This document shows, piece by piece, positions 16,043 through 26,768 of a stretch of 32,710 nt of DNA (the stretch's first letter is position 1; the number at the start of each line of letters is the position of its first letter). The translations under genes and the position numbers were made by a program. Source of the stretch: Fidelibacterota bacterium (lineage in GTDB: Bacteria; Fidelibacterota; Fidelibacteria; Fidelibacterales; Fidelibacteraceae); contig JASGMP010000003.1 in the NCBI GenBank assembly GCA_030156395.1, positions 1 to 32,710 on the forward strand. Direction: 5' to 3'. Below the pieces are notes generated by a model, which saw only the letters and a list, made by a program, of their open reading frames with translations, ran no database searches and had not been told where the DNA came from.

Positions 16043-17869
16043 CTACTTTAGTCCGTTCATATTGTTCTCTTTGTAAAGACTTTCAATTTCTTTTTTGTAC
16101 CGTTCTTCCACCACTTTCCGTTTGATTTTCAGGCTGGGTGTTAATTCACCGCTTAAAATGGTAAAGGCGTTGGGAATAAGAAGGAATTTCTTAATCTGTT
16201 CATAGCGGGGCAGGGAGGTCTGGCGTGTGGCGATATCTTCACCGATCAGATCTTTGAGTTCCTTTTTCTTCAAAATTTCTTCATAGGGTTTGTCGAATCC
16301 TTTTTCATGTGCCCATTTTTCAATCACATCTTTATCCGGGACAATCAAAGCTACCAGATAATTCCGCCGGTCTCCGATCACGACAATCTGATCAATATAG
16401 GGAGACTGACCCAAAAGATTTTCTATATTTGCCGGCGCAATATTTTTGCCACCGGAGGTCACAATCAGATTCTTTTTTCGGTCGGTGATTTTCAGAAAAC
16501 CATCTTCATCCACCATGCCGATATCTCCGGTATGGAACCAGCCATCTTCATCAATAACTTCCGCTGTGGTTTCCGGATTATTCCAGTATCCTTTCATAAC
16601 ATTGCTGCCTTTAAAAAGAATTTCACCGTCATCGGCAATGCGCATTTCACAGCATGGAATGGTTGGACCGACTTTACCAAAGCGGATATCATGAAGAGGG
16701 TTTACATTGGTCACCGGAGACGTTTCGGTCAGGCCAAAACCTTCCAGAATGATAATTCCGGCGGCGGCAAAAAATTCGCCGATTTCTTTGGGCAGTGGTG
16801 CGCCGCCTGAAACGCAGAAACGAAGTTCTCCGCCAAAGGCGTCCTGAATTTTCTTAAAAACCAGTTTTTTGGCAATTCCATATTGAATTCCCAGGATTCC
16901 GGAAGGGTTTTTCCCCTTCACCAAATACTTTGAAGCCACTTCACGACCGACATGGCTGGCCCAATTGAAAATTTTCTGTTTTGTGGCTGACGCATCATGA
17001 ATCTGATTGGTGATTCCGGCAAAGATCTTTTCATACAGGCGTGGTACACTAATCAAATAGTGTGGACGTGCGATTTTAAGATACTCTGGGACTTTCAGAA
17101 AATCTTCGGCAATATAGATTTCCGATCCAAGCCAGAAGGTAAGATGAGAAGCTGCACGTTCAAAACTGTGGCTGAGCGGCAAAAAAGAAAGCCAGCGGCT
17201 CCCCCGTTCAAATTTTACGATATCAAAGGTGGATATCACATCCGACACCAGATTGTAATGGGTAAGCATCACACCTTTGGGATTTCCCGTGGTCCCGGAT
17301 GTATAAATCAGGGTCCACAAATCATCCTTCATGATTTTTTTCCCTTCGTCAACCAAGGTTGTGCCGGATTCCTTTTTCTGTTCCCGGCCCATATCCAGCA
17401 GCTCACGAAAGGTAAAAATCCATTTTTCATCAAAGGATTCATCGTCCATCACCACCATAGTTTTCAAAGAGGGCAGAGATTTTTTAATAGAGATAATTTT
17501 TTCCGCTTGTTCCCGGGTGGAAACGATCGCGGCACTGGTTTCGGAATCCTGGAGAATAAACTGGATCTGGGGTTCCAGAAGTGTGGGATAAACGGCCACA
17601 CTAACATACCCAAAATGGGCGCAGGCATAATCGGTAAGAGTCCACTCAGAGCGGTTTTCCGATTGAATGGCCACGCGGTCTCCCTTTGTGAGTCCCAACC
17701 GCCTGAGTCCAAAGGCAATCAACTCAATGCGGTCTGCCGCTTCGCGATAGGTCATAGAGACCCACTTTCCTCCCTTATTTTCATAGAAGACATTCCTGTC
17801 CGGATTCCGGCTCAGGGTTTCATTAAAAAAATCAGGGATAACCATCGGCTTATTACGTTCGTTTGTCAT
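16043..17869 (-). CDS. Long-chain fatty-acid:CoA ligase (AMP-binding), second copy in the transcript
   Basis: This ANL-superfamily adenylating enzyme converts fatty acid, ATP and CoA to acyl-CoA. The 608-residue chain has the P-loop-like motif YTSGTTGNPKG at 189-199. The A5 motif GFGLTETSP is near 375, WFHTGDIG near 445, and the hinge/A8 segment DRKKNLIVTSGGKNIAP near 465. A C-terminal PSLKIKRKVV segment contains the lysine region. It is of the large FACS type (COG1022), which lacks an obvious membrane segment. It lies 72 nt downstream of a paralogue of nearly the same length with motifs in exact register, so it arose by tandem duplication. The start is set by AGGAGGG 4 nt before the ATG. The fatty-acid chain length is not deducible. 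Confidence 0.92.
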   Translation of the reverse strand: MTNERNKPMVIPDFFNETLSRNPDRNVFYENKGGKWVSMTYREAADRIELIAFGLRRLGLTKGDRVAIQSENRSEWTLTDYACAHFGYVSVAVYPTLLEPQIQFILQDSETSAAIVSTREQAEKIISIKKSLPSLKTMVVMDDESFDEKWIFTFRELLDMGREQKKESGTTLVDEGKKIMKDDLWTLIYTSGTTGNPKGVMLTHYNLVSDVISTFDIVKFERGSRWLSFLPLSHSFERAASHLTFWLGSEIYIAEDFLKVPEYLKIARPHYLISVPRLYEKIFAGITNQIHDASATKQKIFNWASHVGREVASKYLVKGKNPSGILGIQYGIAKKLVFKKIQDAFGGELRFCVSGGAPLPKEIGEFFAAAGIIILEGFGLTETSPVTNVNPLHDIRFGKVGPTIPCCEMRIADDGEILFKGSNVMKGYWNNPETTAEVIDEDGWFHTGDIGMVDEDGFLKITDRKKNLIVTSGGKNIAPANIENLLGQSPYIDQIVVIGDRRNYLVALIVPDKDVIEKWAHEKGFDKPYEEILKKKELKDLIGEDIATRQTSLPRYEQIKKFLLIPNAFTILSGELTPSLKIKRKVVEERYKKEIESLYKENNMNGLK

Positions 17870-17885
17870 TGTTCCCTCCTGTTCA
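17870..17885 (-). promoter_or_regulatory. Leader with ribosome site, copy 1 of a 16-nt repeat
   Basis: The 16 bases before this acyl-CoA ligase start are identical to bases 19755-19770 ahead of its paralogue and contain AGGAGGG. Here the ribosome site is 4 nt from the ATG. The shared leader indicates that the duplicated unit included upstream sequence. Confidence 0.75.
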
Positions 17886-17941
17886 GATATATGTATAAAG
17901 GATAAGGATGCCGGCCTGATTCTCAGGTTCCCGCAAGAGGC

Positions 17942-19750
17942 TCAGGCTGAATACAGGGCATCGATTTCCTTCTTGTATTTTTCTTCCACAACTTTACGTT
18001 TGATTTTCATACTCGGTGTCAGTTCTCCTCCTTCAATGGTAAAGGGTTTGGGAGGAATAAAAAACTTCTTCACCTTTTCATACCGGGCAAATTCTTCCTG
18101 CAGGTGCTGGATTTCATGATCAATCAGTGTGTATACTTCCGGTTTATTCCGGAGTTCATCCCAGGATGAGTAGTTAATCCCACTGTCTTTAGCCCATAGC
18201 TCTACGGCTTCCTGAGCCGGAATAACGGCAGCTGTCAGAAAATTACGCCGGTCTCCAATCACTACGATCTCTTCGATATACCGAGATTTGCACAGCGCGT
18301 TTTCAATCTGGAAAGGTGCAATATTCTTGCCGCCTGATGTGACAATGATATTCTTTTTACGATCTGTAATCTGGAGAAAACCTTCTTCATCGACTGTCCC
18401 GATATCACCGGAATGAAACCATCCATCTTCATCGATAACTTCTTTTGTGGCTTCTTCATTATTCCAGTATCCCTGCATGATATTGGGACCTTTGAAAAGT
18501 ATTTCCCCGTCATCAGCGATTTTCATTTCAACATCTGGCAGTGTGGGTCCCACTTTCCCGAACTTAATATTATCCCGGGGATTTACATTGGTTACCGGGG
18601 TGGTTTCGGTCAGACCGAACCCTTCCAGGATCACAATGCCAGCGGACGCAAAAAATTCACCCACCACCTGAGGCAGGGGTGCTCCGCCGGAAATACCGAA
18701 GATAAAATGCCCTCCAAATGCATCCATAACCTTGGACAAAACCAGTTTATTGGCCAGACGGTATTTGAAACCGATCAAACCGGACGGTTCTTTGTCTTTC
18801 TGGATGAAATCCCGTGCCGCAACACTCCCCACATTCTTGGCCCAGAAAAAAATCTTCTGTTTCAAGGGAGAAGCCTGACCGATGTCATCCAGAACCTTGG
18901 CATAAATCTTTTCATATAAACGGGGAACACTAACCAGGTAGTGAGGTTTGGCCTCTTTGAGGTTATCCGGGACTTTCAGAATTCCTTCGGCAAAATAAGT
19001 GGTTGACCCGATCCAGAAAGACATGTGAATACCCACCCGTTCGAGGCTGTGACTCAGGGGCAGAAAAGAGAGCCAGCGACATCCGCTTTTGAAATGCAGT
19101 GTTTCCTGGGCTGCCTGAACATTGGTGGAAATATTGAATTGCGATAGCATCACACCCTTGGGCATGCCTGTGGTACCGCTGGTATATATGATTGTCCACA
19201 AATCATCTTTTTTCCGCTGGGCACCCCGGCTTTCAAGGGTAAAATCCACATTTGCCTTATAGGCTTTGCCTTTTTCCGCCAATTCCCCAAAAGATAAGAT
19301 CATGGGATCATCGGTTTCAAAAGGATCAAATACAATGATATACTGTAAATCCGGCAAATTTTCCCGGACGGCCAGCACTTTTTTTACATCCTCTTTGGAA
19401 GAGGCGAAAACGGCTTTGGCGCCTGAATCTTTTAGGATGTATTCTACCTGTTTTTCCATCAGGGTTGGATAAATAGTAGCACTAACAATACCAAAATGAG
19501 CACAGGCAAAATCAGTTATGACCCACTCTGGCCGGTTTTCAGATTGAATAGCAATCCGGTCACCCGATTTTAGTCCCAACGCCTCCATACCCATGGCAAT
19601 ATTTTCTGTAACATCCCGAAATTCGGCATACGTAATTCCCTGCCACTGACCCTCTTTTTTGGTGTAAAACGCCACCATCCCGGCGTTGTGCTTCTGAGCT
19701 TCTGCAAACAATGCCGGAATTGTTTCAATATATTCCAATTGATAAGTCAT
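17942..19750 (-). CDS. Long-chain fatty-acid:CoA ligase (AMP-binding), first copy in the transcript
   Basis: This is a paralogue of the ligase downstream, 602 residues, with the same motifs in the same register: YTSGTTGMPKG at 189-199, GFGLTETTP, WFHSGDIG, DRKKNIIVTSGGKNIAP and PSMKIKRKVV near the end. Long blocks such as AIQSENRPEW and DFACAHFG are almost unchanged from the partner. Differences cluster in residues 1-60, 110-185 and the last 120. The start at 19750 is fixed by AGGAGGG 8 nt upstream. The frame extends a further 31 codons, but that part spans the ribosome site and has no family match. Both ligases are probably one operon; no terminator is visible in the 72-nt gap. Two isoforms may differ in chain-length preference (inference). 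Confidence 0.92.
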   Translation of the reverse strand: MTYQLEYIETIPALFAEAQKHNAGMVAFYTKKEGQWQGITYAEFRDVTENIAMGMEALGLKSGDRIAIQSENRPEWVITDFACAHFGIVSATIYPTLMEKQVEYILKDSGAKAVFASSKEDVKKVLAVRENLPDLQYIIVFDPFETDDPMILSFGELAEKGKAYKANVDFTLESRGAQRKKDDLWTIIYTSGTTGMPKGVMLSQFNISTNVQAAQETLHFKSGCRWLSFLPLSHSLERVGIHMSFWIGSTTYFAEGILKVPDNLKEAKPHYLVSVPRLYEKIYAKVLDDIGQASPLKQKIFFWAKNVGSVAARDFIQKDKEPSGLIGFKYRLANKLVLSKVMDAFGGHFIFGISGGAPLPQVVGEFFASAGIVILEGFGLTETTPVTNVNPRDNIKFGKVGPTLPDVEMKIADDGEILFKGPNIMQGYWNNEEATKEVIDEDGWFHSGDIGTVDEEGFLQITDRKKNIIVTSGGKNIAPFQIENALCKSRYIEEIVVIGDRRNFLTAAVIPAQEAVELWAKDSGINYSSWDELRNKPEVYTLIDHEIQHLQEEFARYEKVKKFFIPPKPFTIEGGELTPSMKIKRKVVEEKYKKEIDALYSA

Positions 19751-19754
19751 GAAC

Positions 19755-19770
19755 TGTTCCCTCCTGTTCA
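19755..19770 (-). promoter_or_regulatory. Leader with ribosome site, copy 2 of a 16-nt repeat
   Basis: These 16 bases are identical to 17870-17885 and contain AGGAGGG, here 8 nt before the ATG at 19750. They decide the start of this ligase. Confidence 0.75.
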
Positions 19771-19857
19771 TTGTTTTAAGATAATGAGTTTCCTCTAGAA
19801 ATACAACACTTGCAATTGCATCTTTTATCCCGAACGTTTCCAACCTGCCCCTACCTG

Positions 19858-19920: not shown

Positions 19921-19992
19921 GTCCCGTTCGTCTAGTGGTCAGGACTCAGGACTTTCATTCCTGCAACAGGGGTTCGACTCCCCTACGGGATA
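19921..19992 (+). tRNA. tRNA-Glu (anticodon UUC)
   Basis: The sequence folds as a cloverleaf. The acceptor GTCCCGT (19921-19927) pairs with ACGGGAT (19985-19991) with one G-U closing pair, and the discriminator base is A19992. The anticodon stem CAGGA/TCCTG encloses CTTTCAT, giving anticodon TTC at 19954-19956. The T arm AGGGG-TTCGACT-CCCCT is canonical. The D-arm start TTCGTCTAGTGGTCAGGAC is typical of bacterial tRNA-Glu. No CCA is encoded (CTC follows), so the end must be added by the nucleotidyltransferase family encoded at 10841. The gene stands alone between the ligase leader and a terminator. Confidence 0.97.
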
Positions 19993-20003
19993 CTCCATCT
20001 ACG

Positions 20004-20034
20004 AAGCCTTCTTCAGAAGAAGGCTTTTATTTTT
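20004..20034 (+). terminator. Rho-independent terminator of the tRNA-Glu transcript
   Basis: A perfect 10-bp stem (20004-20013 with 20017-20026) with a 3-nt loop is followed by a T-rich run to 20034. It starts 12 nt after the tRNA and separates it from the next operon. Confidence 0.9.
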
Positions 20035-20059: not shown

Positions 20060-20088
20060 TTGACTTAATTACCAGACCCCTCTATATT
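20060..20088 (+). promoter_or_regulatory. Sigma70-type promoter of the FecR/CHASE2 operon
   Basis: TTGACT at 20060-20065 and TATATT at 20083-20088 have the ideal 17-nt spacer; each is one mismatch from consensus. Transcription would start near 20095, leaving a leader of about 80 nt before the ATG at 20176. The hexamers lie beyond the tRNA terminator, so the operon should be transcribed independently. Confidence 0.7.
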
Positions 20089-20175: not shown

Positions 20176-21384
20176 ATGAAACGTGGTCTTTTGTGTTTTT
20201 TTGCCTTTTTAATGGCCACTACCGGACTTCCAGGAGCGGTTCCCATTGAAATTTCCGAAGAATTTTTCAATGAAGATATCGTTGTATTCTACCTCTCTGA
20301 TTTCAATTTGGAAAACCCACAGGGGAATCCATTGATTTTTGAATACTACATCGGAAACAAGAATTATCCCTGTATATTTCCCGAACCGGTCCAGATCAGC
20401 CTGGAATTTTATTTTAAAGCCCGTATCAGGGCTTTGGGCTGGACCAATTTTCAGCCTATTGTCACCATTGTTTTAAATCCATTTACCATCGCAGGTCCAT
20501 GCCGCATATCCAACCAGATTATTTCTTCCAATATCTCCAATTTTTTCATTCCCTATGATTGTCCTGCCCAGGTGAATACCGGGAGCCCCTATGTGGATCT
20601 GAACGGCGGACAGGCAGATGTGGACAATACGGCTATGTCCCGCTTATCCAACTCCATTTTATCTACCGGACAACTTCCTGCAGGGACTTATTCTTTTCTG
20701 GTCCGCATTGTCAATGAAGGAAGCGGCCAGGTATCAGAAATCTCTAAAAATATACAGATTGTATCCCCTACATCCCTGGAACTCATCGGCCCCGGGAATC
20801 TAGTTCACGGACTTCGGGACTTTGAAAGTCAGTTCAACCGCTTTCCCATGTTCCAGTGGGAAAGCGAAGCCTGTGCATCCTGCAACTATGCGATCCGCAT
20901 CTGCGAGTATGTCCCCGGCATCCATGCCAGCCCCTATGATGCCATGATGGATGAGGCGATTCTGCCATTTCCCGATGACGGGGATTTTTATGACGTGGGA
21001 AATAATATCACCGTCTTAAATTATGACCCGGCTTTGGCCGGCCGGGATCTGGAATTTGGGAAATATTACGTGTGGCAGGTTGAAAAAACCTTTGAAACTT
21101 CAGGTGGGATTCAAAATATGAAAAGTGAAATCTTCGGATTTTTTCTTGAAGATCCCTCTTCGAAGGAAACGGCCCGGCATATAATCAATCCCGTAGAAGA
21201 ACTGCTAAAGGAGCTGGTGGGTGAAGACCAGTTTGAAACCTTGAAAGCCGGTCAGTTAAGCGGTTACCAGCTGTCCGGCATGATGAGTGTGAACGGCCGC
21301 CCCATTACGGTTGAAGAGCTCCGAACTATCGTCAACGGCATCCAGAACGGATCCTACACGATACAAAATGTGTTTGTGGAATAA
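20176..21384 (+). CDS. Secreted protein of unknown function, first gene of the cyclase operon
   Basis: The 402-residue protein has an N-terminal signal peptide (hydrophobic core about 4-16, likely cleavage near residue 21). I do not recognise a named family. Beta-rich segments dominate, with a fibronectin/Ig-like flavour: AGTYSFLVRIVNE at about 169-181 and FGKYYVWQVEKTFE at about 294-307, the latter typical of repeats in secreted proteins of FCB-group bacteria. Six cysteines lie outside the signal peptide (66, 109, 129, 233, 236, 243), with a CxxC at 233-236, suggesting disulfides in the periplasm. A distinct tail (about 338-402) looks mixed helical and strand. The start has AGAGGAG 6 nt upstream. 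The FecR gene begins 10 nt after the stop. The role is inferred only from the operon: an exported partner of the envelope module. Confidence 0.7.
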   Translation: MKRGLLCFFAFLMATTGLPGAVPIEISEEFFNEDIVVFYLSDFNLENPQGNPLIFEYYIGNKNYPCIFPEPVQISLEFYFKARIRALGWTNFQPIVTIVLNPFTIAGPCRISNQIISSNISNFFIPYDCPAQVNTGSPYVDLNGGQADVDNTAMSRLSNSILSTGQLPAGTYSFLVRIVNEGSGQVSEISKNIQIVSPTSLELIGPGNLVHGLRDFESQFNRFPMFQWESEACASCNYAIRICEYVPGIHASPYDAMMDEAILPFPDDGDFYDVGNNITVLNYDPALAGRDLEFGKYYVWQVEKTFETSGGIQNMKSEIFGFFLEDPSSKETARHIINPVEELLKELVGEDQFETLKAGQLSGYQLSGMMSVNGRPITVEELRTIVNGIQNGSYTIQNVFVE

Positions 21385-21394
21385 CGAGGTCGCC

Positions 21395-22081
21395 ATGAAA
21401 TATTTACAAGCCATTCTTGTGATGACACTGATCTTTACGGCTATCCCTGCCAATGCCGATAATCAAAAACTCGCCATGGTGGCAAAAACACGGGGAGAGG
21501 TGACTTTCCGCCATGAAGATGAAACAGCGTTTAAAAACACGGCAAAGGCCGGTACAATCCTGGAAAACGGAGATGTCATCAAAACAGGAAAAGAGTCTTT
21601 TGTCGCCCTGATCTTTCTCGATGATAAAAGCCAGGTGAAACTCCTTGAAAACTGCGATCTCGAAATCCGGGGAGAAAAGATTCGTAACCAGCTCAACAAG
21701 GATCTTTCCATGAATTTCGGCGAATTGAAGGCTGAAATTTCCGATCAGCGCCGCGGGGAATTTAAAATATCCACGCCGACTTCCGTCGCTTCGGTGAAAG
21801 GAACCGATTTCTGGATTTTATCCGATCCCAGGCTGGGTGATAAAATTATCGGCCTGAGTGGACTCGTGGAATTGATGAACCAGATCACTGGTTATACGGT
21901 GTCTGTTGGCCCTAATCAAACAGGATTATCTCTTCCAAACGGTAATGTGAATATTCAGGTAACCAACCCGAATGATATCCCCGAAGATATCGTGGTGGAT
22001 GAAAAAGAATTACATCAACTGAAAATCCAGTTTCAAAATCCCCGGGGAGAATCAAAAAATATCATCATAGAATATCGGTAA
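21395..22081 (+). CDS. Secreted FecR-domain protein
   Basis: The 228-residue exported protein has a signal peptide (about 1-21, IPANA-like cleavage) and one FecR domain. The domain opens with KTRGEVTFR and proceeds through AKAGTILENGDVIKTGKESFVAL (about 50-72). It ends in the hallmark KISTPTSVASVKGTDFWI (about 124-141), equivalent to the usual TPxxxxxVRGTxF motif. Unlike anti-sigma FecR proteins it lacks a cytoplasmic N-terminal part and an internal membrane helix, and no ECF sigma gene lies nearby. It is therefore more likely a periplasmic structural or sensing partner. The ATG follows a GAGG site. A longer frame starting inside the previous gene has no signal peptide and is rejected. The stop overlaps the next ATG by 1 nt (TAATG). 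Confidence 0.88.
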   Translation: MKYLQAILVMTLIFTAIPANADNQKLAMVAKTRGEVTFRHEDETAFKNTAKAGTILENGDVIKTGKESFVALIFLDDKSQVKLLENCDLEIRGEKIRNQLNKDLSMNFGELKAEISDQRRGEFKISTPTSVASVKGTDFWILSDPRLGDKIIGLSGLVELMNQITGYTVSVGPNQTGLSLPNGNVNIQVTNPNDIPEDIVVDEKELHQLKIQFQNPRGESKNIIIEYR

Positions 22082-24591
22082 TGAAAAAACGCCTCTTTCG
22101 GACCCTGTTCCTCCTATGGATACCCTGCCTCCTTTCAGCTCAAACAGGTACTCTTGTCCATATTCCAGTCAGAGAATATATACCGGGTGAAACGTTGACT
22201 TTTCAATGTTTATTTTCCGGGAATATCTCCCATGTCAAAGCGATGAATTTGTTTATTCGTCCCACCGGAAACCGGTCATATCACCAATATTCCATGAAAT
22301 ACAACGGGATCGAATGGACAGCAACCGTGCCCGGCAATGCTTTATCCGGCGGGGACATGGAATATTTTATCCTGGCTGAATTATCCCATGGGGGTGTAAT
22401 CAGTACACCGGTTGACAATCCCTTTGATGATCCCCTAATCATACGGGATATGGAAACCGGTGAAGTCTCTGTTACAGAAAGCTCGTCCATGTCGGAAGAG
22501 GGTAGTATTCCAGCAGAATACATTATCCTTGCCCCGGAACCAGGCAAAACCATTGAAAGCAGTGATTTTGTGGTCGCCGTCTCACTTTTTAACATGCCGG
22601 ATATTGATGTATCCAGCATCCGTCTGGAACTAAACGGTCACGATTATTCTTCCTACCTGGAAAAATCTCCGGATATTATCACACTCACCCTGCCGTCGGG
22701 AACCCTTGAACCCGGGATGTACACGGTAACACTCCATGCCAAAAACCATTATGGTACCTATTTCAATCCTGAAACCTGGACATTTACACTCATCAGTGCC
22801 CAGGAATCTATGCAACGTATAGACCGTTCGCTAAGTGGCCAGGTGGGGACCGAATTTCGCTGGGAAAATGTGGATGGAGAACCCAACAATCTCCTCCGGT
22901 TCACCGGCAGGATCACTGGAAGCATTCAGGGCATTACACTGGGATCTTCAGGATTGTGGGCTTCCAATGAATCCTCCCACTATCAGGCCAGAAATTCTTT
23001 TAATGCTTATGCCCGGACATCCTATACGGATCTTGAATTGGGAACCTTTTATCCGGAACTCTCCCGTCTTACCCTTTACGGAAACCGGGTCAACGGTGCC
23101 ATGATCCGGCTAAAACTGAATTTTCTGAACCTGACATATCTCAGGGGGGAACTGCTCCGGGAGGTTCTGAACCGGGCAGAGCTTGACAGCAGCTCGCACA
23201 CCTGGACTATTTCCTCCTTTACCTATGCCCGGGATATCCAGGTCATTCAACCTGAACTCCGCTTTGGATCCTTTCTGAATTGGAAAATGACCCTCATGCA
23301 TGCCCGGGATGATACCGCCAGCCTTGATCCGGCCCTGAATATTGAAGATTATAACCCGGAGACCGATTCGTATGTTTTCCAGGGAAATTCACCGGTGGAC
23401 AATCTGGTTTTTGATAACAGTATCATCCTGAGCCTGGATAATCAGCGCCTGGTATGGTCCCACAATCTAGCCCTGAGCATGACAAACCGGAACATCCGGG
23501 GAGGCGTGCATGATTCCATCACTATCGGTGACGAAATCATCAGTGTTTCAGACAAACTCCCGGATTTCCTGAGTCCTGACCGGCTGTCTCGTTTCTTTAT
23601 CATCAACGAAAACACAACCCTTCCCATACCGGCCAAAGTGAGTGAAGACCTGACAGGATTCAGGCTGCAACCTTATAAAATCATGGACTATCCTTCTCTG
23701 GCTTACTGGACAACCTTGCGCCTGAATTATTACAATAACCTGGTTACATGGACGTTTAAACATATTGCGCCTGAATTTTCATCTCTTGCTTACCCGGGCT
23801 TACAGACCGATATACACTTGTCAGAAATCGGGGACCGAATTCGTCTGTTCCGGAACAGGCTAATCGTAACTCTCCGGTACAGCAGCCAGCATGATAATCT
23901 GTTGGGGGAACAGAAAGAGTATGTGACCAATACCAACTCCTTATCTGCGGCAATATCTGTCATGCCGGGACAGGAACTACCCACCGTGTCCATGTCTTTC
24001 AGATACTATCTTAGGGAAAACGACCTGAATACCGCCGCGGATACCCTCAGCGAATTGCTTACATTTGCAGTAACCGACCAACGGATACGAAATGAAAACC
24101 TGTATCAGATGTTTACCCTGACCCAACCCTTGAAAACCGTTGGAATTCCCACAGATCTGACAATCAACTATATCCGCACATTTCGGAAGGATAAAATCCC
24201 CAACAGACCACCAGGCTATATCAGTCCCGACTATTCCCTAAACCTCTGGTCTGCCTCCGCTCTGACCCGGTGGTCATCCACTCTGTCCCAGACTCTTTCC
24301 TGGAGTTTGATGGATAATAAAATCAGTCATACATCCGATTTTACATACCAGACCTTTGCCGGAAAAATTGAAAAATCATTGTGGGAAAACAAACTCTTCG
24401 GAGCTTTTGAAATAAAGTGGACTCATGCCTCGGGAGATGTGGCTTTTGACCAGTACCAGGTTTCACCTGAACTACGTATAAAAATCTTCGAAAATGATTT
24501 GTTTCTAAACCTGCACATTAATAAACTGAATCAATCCGGGACAACAGGAACCAGCACTCGGTTTTATACGAAATACACTTACCAATTCTGA
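22081..24591 (+). CDS. Secreted Ig-like plus predicted outer-membrane beta-barrel protein
   Basis: The 836-residue protein has a signal peptide (about 1-20, ending LLSAQ). Two Ig-like beta-sandwich domains seem to follow: about 22-125 (YIPGETLTFQCLF to MEYFILAELSHGG) and about 148-245 (ILAPEPGKTI to PETWTFTLI). From about 260 to the end the sequence is a long series of alternating hydrophobic strands rich in aromatic and Asn/Thr residues, as in outer-membrane barrels. The chain ends in YTKYTYQF, with a terminal Phe as in the beta-signal recognised by BamA. I do not recognise a named family. Translation is coupled on both sides (1-nt overlaps with the FecR and cyclase genes). It probably links the outer membrane to the periplasmic FecR and CHASE2 partners; that is inference. 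Confidence 0.7.
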   Translation: MKKRLFRTLFLLWIPCLLSAQTGTLVHIPVREYIPGETLTFQCLFSGNISHVKAMNLFIRPTGNRSYHQYSMKYNGIEWTATVPGNALSGGDMEYFILAELSHGGVISTPVDNPFDDPLIIRDMETGEVSVTESSSMSEEGSIPAEYIILAPEPGKTIESSDFVVAVSLFNMPDIDVSSIRLELNGHDYSSYLEKSPDIITLTLPSGTLEPGMYTVTLHAKNHYGTYFNPETWTFTLISAQESMQRIDRSLSGQVGTEFRWENVDGEPNNLLRFTGRITGSIQGITLGSSGLWASNESSHYQARNSFNAYARTSYTDLELGTFYPELSRLTLYGNRVNGAMIRLKLNFLNLTYLRGELLREVLNRAELDSSSHTWTISSFTYARDIQVIQPELRFGSFLNWKMTLMHARDDTASLDPALNIEDYNPETDSYVFQGNSPVDNLVFDNSIILSLDNQRLVWSHNLALSMTNRNIRGGVHDSITIGDEIISVSDKLPDFLSPDRLSRFFIINENTTLPIPAKVSEDLTGFRLQPYKIMDYPSLAYWTTLRLNYYNNLVTWTFKHIAPEFSSLAYPGLQTDIHLSEIGDRIRLFRNRLIVTLRYSSQHDNLLGEQKEYVTNTNSLSAAISVMPGQELPTVSMSFRYYLRENDLNTAADTLSELLTFAVTDQRIRNENLYQMFTLTQPLKTVGIPTDLTINYIRTFRKDKIPNRPPGYISPDYSLNLWSASALTRWSSTLSQTLSWSLMDNKISHTSDFTYQTFAGKIEKSLWENKLFGAFEIKWTHASGDVAFDQYQVSPELRIKIFENDLFLNLHINKLNQSGTTGTSTRFYTKYTYQF

Positions 24592-26768
24592 TGAAGATCA
24601 AACAAAAAACATGGCAAAACATCCTAGCTGGTACAATTATCGGGGTCATTGTCTTGTTGCTGACCATTTTAATCCGCGAAACCGGCATGATAGAGACTGT
24701 TGAACTGAAATCCATTGATTACCGGTTCAAGCGGCGCGGCCCGATAGAAGATATCCGGGAAAGGAGTCCCATCGTCGTCGTTGCACTGGATCAGGAATCC
24801 TGGGAATCCATCCCATATCGCTTTCCCTATCCCCGAAAAATGTGGGGGAAGGTCGTCCGGAACCTCAAGGATGCCGGTGCAAAGCTCATCGTCTTTGACT
24901 TTCAGTTTGACACCCATGATATCAATGACCTTCGTAGTGATACTCTATTTGCTGAAGCCATTAAATATGCCGGCAATGTGATCCTTCCCAGTAAGCTGAA
25001 CCAGGAAATTGTCCGGGGACATGTCATCCAGTATATTACTGAGCCGGTGAATCTTTTTTACGATGCCTGCTTGACAACGGGACTTATCGGTGAATTGAAG
25101 GATATTGATCAGTATACCCGGAATTATTCTATTTTTTATCCCCTCAAGGATAAGTACTATCTTTTTCTGGGCATGAAAGCCATTAAAGAGTATTTGGGTA
25201 TTCACGATTCTGTGAAAATGGCCTTTTCAGAGGATATGAATTTTATTGAGTACGGTCCTTTGCGCATCCGCCATAACAATGGAAACAGCTTTATGATCAA
25301 TTATTACGGGCCGGCCAAAACCTTTAGTACTTACTCTTTGTCATCTGTCCTGGATGATGCGGAAACAGATCTCAGAGGAGATTATGACACAGATTACATG
25401 GAATTGTGGAAAGGCGACAAATCGGTCTATCCCAAGGAACTTCTCTCCATTTTGAATCCAACCGGGGAAGATTCTCCCTTTAAAGATAAGATTGTACTTA
25501 TCGGAGATGCTCTGGAAGAACACTTTGACACCAAATTCACCCCTTTTTACAATTATAAGGGAATGACCAACCTTATGGCCGGTGTAGAAACCCATGCCCA
25601 TGCCATGCAAACGGTCCTGGATGAAAATTATCTGATTAAACCCGATAAATGGGTGAATAATATCATTGTATTGGTTTTAAGTGTTCTTGCGCTGATTATT
25701 ACCATCACCCTGGGGCCCGTATGGGGGATCATCATCATCTCCCTTTTAATCCTGGCCTATACCTATCTATCCTTTTCTCTTTTCAACGAAAACCGGATAA
25801 TCATCGAGCTTTCTATTCCCATCCTGACCGTTTTCCTTTCCTATGCTTTTGACATGTTGTATGAATTCATCTTAGAGCAGCGTGAAAAGAAAAAAATCCG
25901 AGGAATGTTTTCCACCTATATATCCCCCAAGATCTTAAAATATCTTGAAGATCATCCGGACGCTTTTACCCTGACGGGAGAAAAACGGGAAGCCACCATA
26001 TTTTTCTCTGATGTTCAAAGTTTCACGACCATTTCCGAGAGTCTGAATCCGGAAGATCTGGCCATGTTATTGAACAAATATCTTTCTCCTATGACACAAA
26101 TCCTCATGAGTTATGACGGATACGTAGATAAGTACGAAGGCGACGCCATTATGTGTGATTTCGGTGTCCCTGTTGAAGACAACGAACATGCCCGGAAAGC
26201 CTGTTGGGCCGCTCTGGAGCAGCAGAAAAAGATATCTGAACTACGGCCTGAATTAAAAAAGGAATATGGCGTGGAAATCTATGTCCGCATGGGCATTAAT
26301 TCCGGGCTGGTCAGTGCCGGCAACATGGGATCTGAACAACGTTTTCAATATACCGTGATGGGGGATGCTGTTAATGCCGCCTCCCGATTTGAAGGGGCCA
26401 ACAAACAGTATGGCACCTACCTGATGATTGGAGAAAGTACATACAATCTGGCAAAGCCCTTCATAGAAGCCAGGATGCTGGACCGTCTGATTGTCAAAGG
26501 AAAAGCCAGGCCCATTACCGTATATAATCTGATGGCAAAAAAAGGAGAAGCCACAGAAGCGGAACGGAAGCTCATGGAATGGTATGAAAAGGGATTAAAT
26601 CTCTACTGGAATCAGAAATGGGATGATGCCATCGATGCTTTCCGGATAGCCCTTGAATTTGTCCCGGGCGATCCGCCCTCAGAACGTTTTATTCAGCGCT
26701 GCCGCGATTTTAAAATTACCCCGCCGCCTGATCACTGGCAGGGTGAATATATCATGACGACAAAATAA
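24591..26768 (+). CDS. CHASE2-domain class III adenylate cyclase
   Basis: The 725-residue inner-membrane enzyme makes cAMP in response to a periplasmic signal. Domain order: one membrane helix (about 11-28); a CHASE2 sensor domain (about 35-345) that opens with VELKSIDYRFKRRGP and contains IVVVALDQESW and KDKIVLIGDALEEHFDTKFTP; three membrane helices (about 355-421); a short coiled linker; a class III cyclase domain (about 465-640). Catalytic residues are complete: metal Asp474 (FFSD) and Asp518 (EGDAIM), substrate-specifying Lys514 and Asp592 (MGDAVN), and transition-state Asn595 and Arg599. The Lys/Asp pair favours ATP over GTP. A C-terminal tail (about 655-725) has a TPR-like helix pair, EKGLNLYWNQKWDDAIDAF. 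The start overlaps the barrel stop by 1 nt (TGATG). Confidence 0.93.
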   Translation: MKIKQKTWQNILAGTIIGVIVLLLTILIRETGMIETVELKSIDYRFKRRGPIEDIRERSPIVVVALDQESWESIPYRFPYPRKMWGKVVRNLKDAGAKLIVFDFQFDTHDINDLRSDTLFAEAIKYAGNVILPSKLNQEIVRGHVIQYITEPVNLFYDACLTTGLIGELKDIDQYTRNYSIFYPLKDKYYLFLGMKAIKEYLGIHDSVKMAFSEDMNFIEYGPLRIRHNNGNSFMINYYGPAKTFSTYSLSSVLDDAETDLRGDYDTDYMELWKGDKSVYPKELLSILNPTGEDSPFKDKIVLIGDALEEHFDTKFTPFYNYKGMTNLMAGVETHAHAMQTVLDENYLIKPDKWVNNIIVLVLSVLALIITITLGPVWGIIIISLLILAYTYLSFSLFNENRIIIELSIPILTVFLSYAFDMLYEFILEQREKKKIRGMFSTYISPKILKYLEDHPDAFTLTGEKREATIFFSDVQSFTTISESLNPEDLAMLLNKYLSPMTQILMSYDGYVDKYEGDAIMCDFGVPVEDNEHARKACWAALEQQKKISELRPELKKEYGVEIYVRMGINSGLVSAGNMGSEQRFQYTVMGDAVNAASRFEGANKQYGTYLMIGESTYNLAKPFIEARMLDRLIVKGKARPITVYNLMAKKGEATEAERKLMEWYEKGLNLYWNQKWDDAIDAFRIALEFVPGDPPSERFIQRCRDFKITPPPDHWQGEYIMTTK

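Follow-up and report, generated by a model that had tools for sequence, protein, structure and literature searches.

We examined a stretch of 32,710 nucleotides (nt) from a genome contig of the phylum Neomarinimicrobiota (Marinimicrobia) (JASGMP010000003.1, positions 1 to 32,710; hereafter the window), and found in it an operon of four genes that, with a probability we put at about 0.6, encodes a trans-envelope signaling unit based on cyclic adenosine monophosphate (cAMP), a split version of the NsrA-CyaK system of the plant-nodulating bacterium Sinorhizobium meliloti with a different family of barrel. All four genes lie on the forward strand: gene 1 (20176-21384) encodes a 402-residue secreted protein with beta-sandwich regions resembling immunoglobulin (Ig) and fibronectin type III (FN3) folds; gene 2 (21395-22081) encodes a 228-residue secreted protein with a FecR domain (PF04773, 3.7e-10); gene 3 (22081-24591) encodes an 836-residue secreted protein in which two Ig-like domains are followed by a predicted outer-membrane beta-barrel; and gene 4 (24591-26768) encodes a 725-residue protein with a CHASE2 domain, membrane helices, a class III adenylate cyclase domain and a TPR-like C terminus. 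The gaps between successive genes are 10, -1 and -1 nt. These coordinates, gaps and domains reproduce the four-gene operon proposed in a preliminary description of this DNA.

In the pathway that we propose, the 836-residue protein would be a beta-barrel of the outer membrane bearing two Ig-like domains, secreted FecR would be its partner in the periplasm, and the beta-sandwich protein encoded by gene 1 would be an accessory to this outer-membrane assembly. The state of this assembly, reflecting either a bound ligand or an envelope condition, would be passed to the periplasmic CHASE2 domain, which would modulate the adenylate cyclase on the cytoplasmic side and, with it, the supply of cAMP to CRP-type regulators.

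The cyclase has a CHASE2 domain (PF05226, 1.2e-38) and a catalytic domain (Guanylate_cyc, PF00211, 4.6e-25), and its hydrophobic segments (residues 10-28, 358-376 and 403-421) place CHASE2 between membrane helices. With CHASE2 flanked by membrane helices and the catalytic domain intact, the protein is a CHASE2 class III cyclase. As had been claimed, all of the catalytic residues are there: the six class III residues (D474, K514, D518, T588, N595 and R599) are present, and they are invariant among 28 aligned sequences. Among class III cyclases, the Lys/Thr base-recognition pair fits an adenylate cyclase, and the best solved relatives are bacterial adenylate cyclases, for example CyaB; the product is probably cAMP. 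The window genome also yields four matches to proteins that bind cyclic nucleoside monophosphates. The cyclases of the operon group into a single clade (100/99), to the exclusion of the phylum's other CHASE2 cyclases. We note that the second CHASE2 cyclase of the window genome (L074, 5938-9317; G000:C39) is followed by a gene for an SH3-domain/M48-peptidase protein, and that partner genes of similar size follow many paralogous CHASE2 cyclases of this kind.

The FecR protein is recognizable by a conserved core, TPTSVASVKGTxFW, within which SVASVKGT is very conserved. Its N terminus resembles only a signal peptide, the anti-sigma part is absent, and a simple Kyte-Doolittle scan detected no hydrophobic segment of membrane length, in agreement with the earlier statement that this FecR protein lacks a membrane helix. 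A search with FecR against plasmids gave no match. The divergence of FecR correlates most closely with that of the barrel protein (Spearman 0.90), compared to 0.69-0.79 for either protein with porX, a hint only, since the 19 genomes compared are not independent.

These components have a close parallel in S. meliloti. There, the outer-membrane receptor NsrA is partnered in a cAMP pathway by CHASE2 cyclases of the inner membrane, CyaK and CyaD1/D2, and its role as a receptor acting through these cyclases has been established experimentally (PMC7529298, PMC13001267). In both systems a FecR domain and a barrel (here predicted) are encoded directly before a CHASE2 cyclase with a 1-nt overlap, nsrA overlapping cyaK by 1 nt. 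Moreover, the FecR parts are homologous (hhalign 93.9%, 1.6e-7), and so are the cyclases, which align end to end (27%, 7e-57). In contrast to NsrA, a single chain of 1,200 residues with FecR and TPR domains ahead of the barrel, the Neomarinimicrobiota FecR and barrel are encoded by separate genes, and the secreted gene 1 protein is an addition.

Similar arrangements are found in other bacteria. In Campylobacterota, the genes clustered with CHASE2 cyclases encode an outer-membrane protein with FecR, a TPR protein and a phosphodiesterase (PMC9239204); the likeness lies in the pairing of a CHASE2 cyclase with a FecR-domain outer-membrane protein, whereas the cAMP phosphodiesterase and the TPR protein are not seen in the window operon and a counterpart of gene 1 is not reported for those clusters. 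A FecR gene also adjoins a CHASE2 cyclase gene in Ruegeria. FecR and CHASE2-cyclase genes do neighbor each other elsewhere, as the preliminary description remarked, with S. meliloti, Campylobacterota and Ruegeria as examples. In the BiofilmReg operon of Burkholderia, a FecR protein is encoded beside a CHASE2 histidine kinase (PMC5192318), so that a secreted FecR-domain protein again adjoins a CHASE2 sensor, but the output is a histidine kinase with a response regulator and an outer-membrane barrel is absent. The FecI-FecR-FecA system shares with the window operon the FecR domain and the idea that the state of the outer membrane is relayed inward; it differs in that the window operon has no adjacent gene for an extracytoplasmic function (ECF) sigma factor, that the window FecR has neither a membrane helix nor a cytoplasmic or N-terminal anti-sigma part, and that the barrel lacks a Plug domain match (the families listed for 32 barrel proteins include neither Plug nor TonB-receptor). 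As a further case of a barrel adjoining a CHASE2 cyclase, we observed on an Azospirillum plasmid (L094, 6103-10725) a CHASE2 cyclase gene followed by one for an outer-membrane protein of the ShlB/FhaC type. Among openly licensed papers we found none on the present arrangement in Marinimicrobia. The flow from barrel through FecR and CHASE2 to cAMP, as first suggested for this operon, is therefore plausible but less novel than it was taken to be, since both NsrA/CyaK and the Campylobacterota clusters precede it.

The four genes are conserved as a unit well beyond the window. Among 61 Neomarinimicrobiota genomes, the barrel gene is present in 38, gene 1 (beyond domain-only matches) occurs in exactly the same 38, and nearly all of these have an adjacent CHASE2 cyclase. 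We found all four genes, with order and strand unchanged, in 31 retrieved loci as well as in the window, although one of these loci (L038) is broken by frameshifts and a contig end. In four further genomes a CHASE2 match directly adjoins the barrel gene, and in another two the barrel gene is where the contig stops. In a phylum-wide sample, 124 of 175 genomes, representing 66 of 74 genera, have a gene 1 match, which in a few cases is domain-only; family f7, with its reduced genomes, lacks gene 1, as do some other lineages, among them two sister genera of the window's family. A scan of genome contigs with the barrel alignment returned two close relatives only. The four-gene unit occurs throughout most of Neomarinimicrobiota and is no local curiosity. 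The preliminary description, which had called for such a neighborhood survey, was to be given up if the four families did not co-occur in other genomes; instead, the unit travels together across the phylum.

The barrel assignment concerns residues 250-836 of the gene 3 protein, which on pattern evidence appear to carry the marks of an outer-membrane barrel, short of proof. This region has a beta-amphipathicity of z = 5.1 relative to shuffled sequences, a signal absent at the helical angle and in the Ig part; it has about 25 strand-like segments and almost no Cys, and a C-terminal Phe is found in 27 of the 32 barrel-family sequences. The two Ig-like domains (residues ~33-124 and 143-240) were modeled by AlphaFold2 with moderate confidence (predicted local distance difference test, pLDDT, mostly 54-86). 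A Foldseek search with the model of this protein returned generic Ig/FN3 folds only. The protein has no significant Pfam family, and matches to porins or other outer-membrane proteins among the 32 barrel proteins were weak and in single members only. The barrel named in the preliminary description is thus favored by the amphipathic strands, the C-terminal Phe and a signal peptide pattern, but is left without a confident model and with those weak porin-type matches.

The gene 1 protein likewise has no significant Pfam or NCBIfam family, so that the profile searches advised for the 402- and 836-residue proteins assigned neither to a Pfam family. Members of the gene 1 family have Ig/FN3-type beta-sandwich regions, with weak matches of the TcfC E-set, FlgD-Ig, Rha78A-N and PKD types, and the C terminus is predicted to be helical; columns ~200-288 of the gene 1 profile recur inside proteins of 1,100-2,200 residues elsewhere in the phylum. 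Structure prediction for the window protein, based on a three-row alignment, gave a mean pLDDT of 33. The earlier description of this secreted protein as Cys-rich is weak: the mature protein has six Cys in the window but mostly two to five elsewhere, and only a CxxC around positions 233-236 recurs.

Several observations weigh against a cAMP pathway of the NsrA-CyaK kind. First, AlphaFold2 gave no usable model for residues 241-836 of the gene 3 protein (pLDDT ~22); this prediction and that for gene 1 failed because the alignments, of three rows each, were too shallow. Second, the barrels are not detectably related (hhalign of the barrel family against NsrA, 0.6%), and Pfam finds no TPR in the FecR or barrel protein of the window, unlike NsrA. 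With its different barrel, its split receptor and its lack of TPRs, the Neomarinimicrobiota unit falls outside the NsrA family, although on the best-supported reading it would work in the manner of NsrA-CyaK.

Third, the triad of genes 1-3 and the cyclase also occur apart. Triads of gene 1, FecR and barrel without a cyclase are present as second copies in several genomes (L040, L060, L106, L108, L111 and L114, with the contig of L106 ending inside the barrel gene). Conversely, a genome of the window's genus (G003) keeps an intact operon-type cyclase although its genes 1-3 are gone; this cyclase (L135, 10300-13226; G003:C12) is 80% identical, has all six catalytic residues and lies beside dnaG. 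In addition, the divergence of the cyclase tracks that of the triad poorly (0.47-0.55), again no more than a hint from 19 non-independent genomes. Since both cyclase-free triads and a triad-free cyclase exist, the coupling of triad and cyclase is common but not obligatory, and a strict four-part pathway, as first outlined, is disfavored. The cyclase-free triads stand at unrelated sites with short overlaps between their genes (L106, 6589-10562; L108, 8954-13146; L111, 1392-5635; L114, 2946-7653).

We considered that genes 1-3 might instead form a structural or surface-assembly module with a job of its own, the cyclase being a co-transcribed monitor of the envelope or an unrelated passenger that receives no signal from them. 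Triads without a cyclase in several lineages, the survival of the cyclase by itself in G003 and its uncoupled divergence would all fit such a module, as would the existence, in the window's genus (L070, L072 and L073), of a related but distant FecR-barrel pair that follows a 1,555-residue secreted protein rich in Rha78A-N-type Ig domains and has no cyclase. However, with few exceptions the fourth gene in the main lineage is the cyclase, from one orthologous clade, and the coupling of FecR/barrel genes to CHASE2 cyclases recurs in Alphaproteobacteria and Campylobacterota. We regard an independent module as rather unlikely, though more probable than the other alternatives. The paralogous cluster (L070, 988-9469; L072; L073; L086) consists of a secreted Ig protein of 1,555-1,584 residues with a gene 1-like part, a FecR protein of 386-399 residues and the distant barrel relative.

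The position of the operon on the chromosome is also conserved. Outside the window's genus, the operon and the 5S gene of the ribosomal RNA (rRNA) operon are on the same contig in 24 of the 25 genomes in which both were found, and in the loci read the operon follows 23S-5S immediately and in the same orientation, gene 1 being 115-371 nt from 5S. Sixteen further loci from other families are beside the rRNA operon, and 15 of these have the four genes in order; the exception, L110, has no cyclase behind the barrel gene. As there is one 5S match per genome, the data suggest a single rRNA operon per genome. On the other side, the downstream neighbor is porX (response regulator with PglZ) in 27 of the 61 genomes, followed by tsaE and tsaB. 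The arrangement of rRNA operon, four genes and porX is ancestral. In the window's genus this block is broken and the four genes have been relocated as a unit: in the single-contig genome G004, 5S is at 808 kilobases (kb), the operon at 157-164 kb with its four genes still together, and porX at 356 kb.

It could be argued from this that the four genes are adjacent only through an ancestral segment (rRNA operon, the four genes, porX, tsaE, tsaB) that rearranges slowly, in which case adjacency would say nothing of function; indeed, the entire segment has been kept in many families, genes of unrelated function included. We consider this highly improbable, since in the window's genus the four genes left both the rRNA operon and porX as one block, triads turn up at other locations, their reading frames overlapping, and the spacing in the window is 10, -1 and -1 nt behind one promoter. 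Least probable of all is that the operon is a regulatory arm of the type IX secretion system together with PorX, its frequent neighbor: the translocon protein SprA is present in 59 of the 61 genomes, but we rejected this link as the main reading because PorX and SprA also occur in genomes free of the operon, where porX keeps its tsaE-tsaB neighbors, and because a long distance separates operon and porX in the window's genus. PorX-like proteins were seen in most of the 61 genomes, and loci L041-L116 show that in most of the phylum's families the operon is anchored between the rRNA operon and porX-tsaE-tsaB.

We also considered read-through from the rRNA operon and rejected it as unproven. In the rRNA-linked loci 5S is immediately followed by a hairpin with a T run, and several lineages have promoter-like sites downstream of it; the linkage is thus one of position, not of evident co-transcription. 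A tentative suggestion, for which the odds are clearly below even, is that the products of genes 1-3 constitute an exchangeable sensor triad of the outer membrane that had not been described before, mounted on a CHASE2 cyclase in most of the phylum and cyclase-free elsewhere, and that its long residence behind the single rRNA operon may tie its role partly to growth state.

If the NsrA-CyaK-like reading is right, it offers a testable trans-envelope signaling pathway for a phylum with hardly any cultivated members, and suggests that the logic linking the outer membrane to CHASE2 and cAMP, studied to date in rhizobia, is repeated in a far-removed phylum, where the barrel is another one and the receptor is split. 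The split makes each part experimentally separable, and the family provides many natural variants for comparison (with cyclase, without cyclase and cyclase alone). To our knowledge, the ligands of CHASE2 domains are essentially unknown.

In the window, the operon is preceded by a transfer RNA (tRNA) gene, tRNA-Glu (UUC) (19921-19993, forward strand), which in this genus occupies the place of the rRNA operon seen in most of the phylum. An intrinsic terminator of the tRNA gene follows on the same strand (20003-20027; 11-pair stem and T run), and related species have a hairpin of differing sequence at the equivalent position. The sigma70-type promoter proposed earlier for the operon (20060-20088, forward strand; TTGACT-17-TATATT) was one of 17 sigma70-like matches in a promoter scan, close to the 13.7 +/- 3.7 expected by chance, so that the scan on its own is no proof. 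The promoter is supported, however, by conservation across four species of the genus whose protein identity falls as low as 69%: the -10 hexamer is identical and the -35 near-identical, and the hexamers persist even in the most distant of the four, where much of the sequence around them has changed.

The neighbors of fecR are gene 1 and the barrel gene, and the operon is flanked by tRNA-Glu, an AMP-binding ligase gene and, downstream on the opposite strand, dnaG; no sigma factor gene is present, as had been reported. The closest named records to the window are Marinimicrobia 46_43 and UBA6817. Upstream of the tRNA gene, the window (16043-19843) contains two adjacent paralogous genes resembling those for long-chain acyl-CoA ligases.

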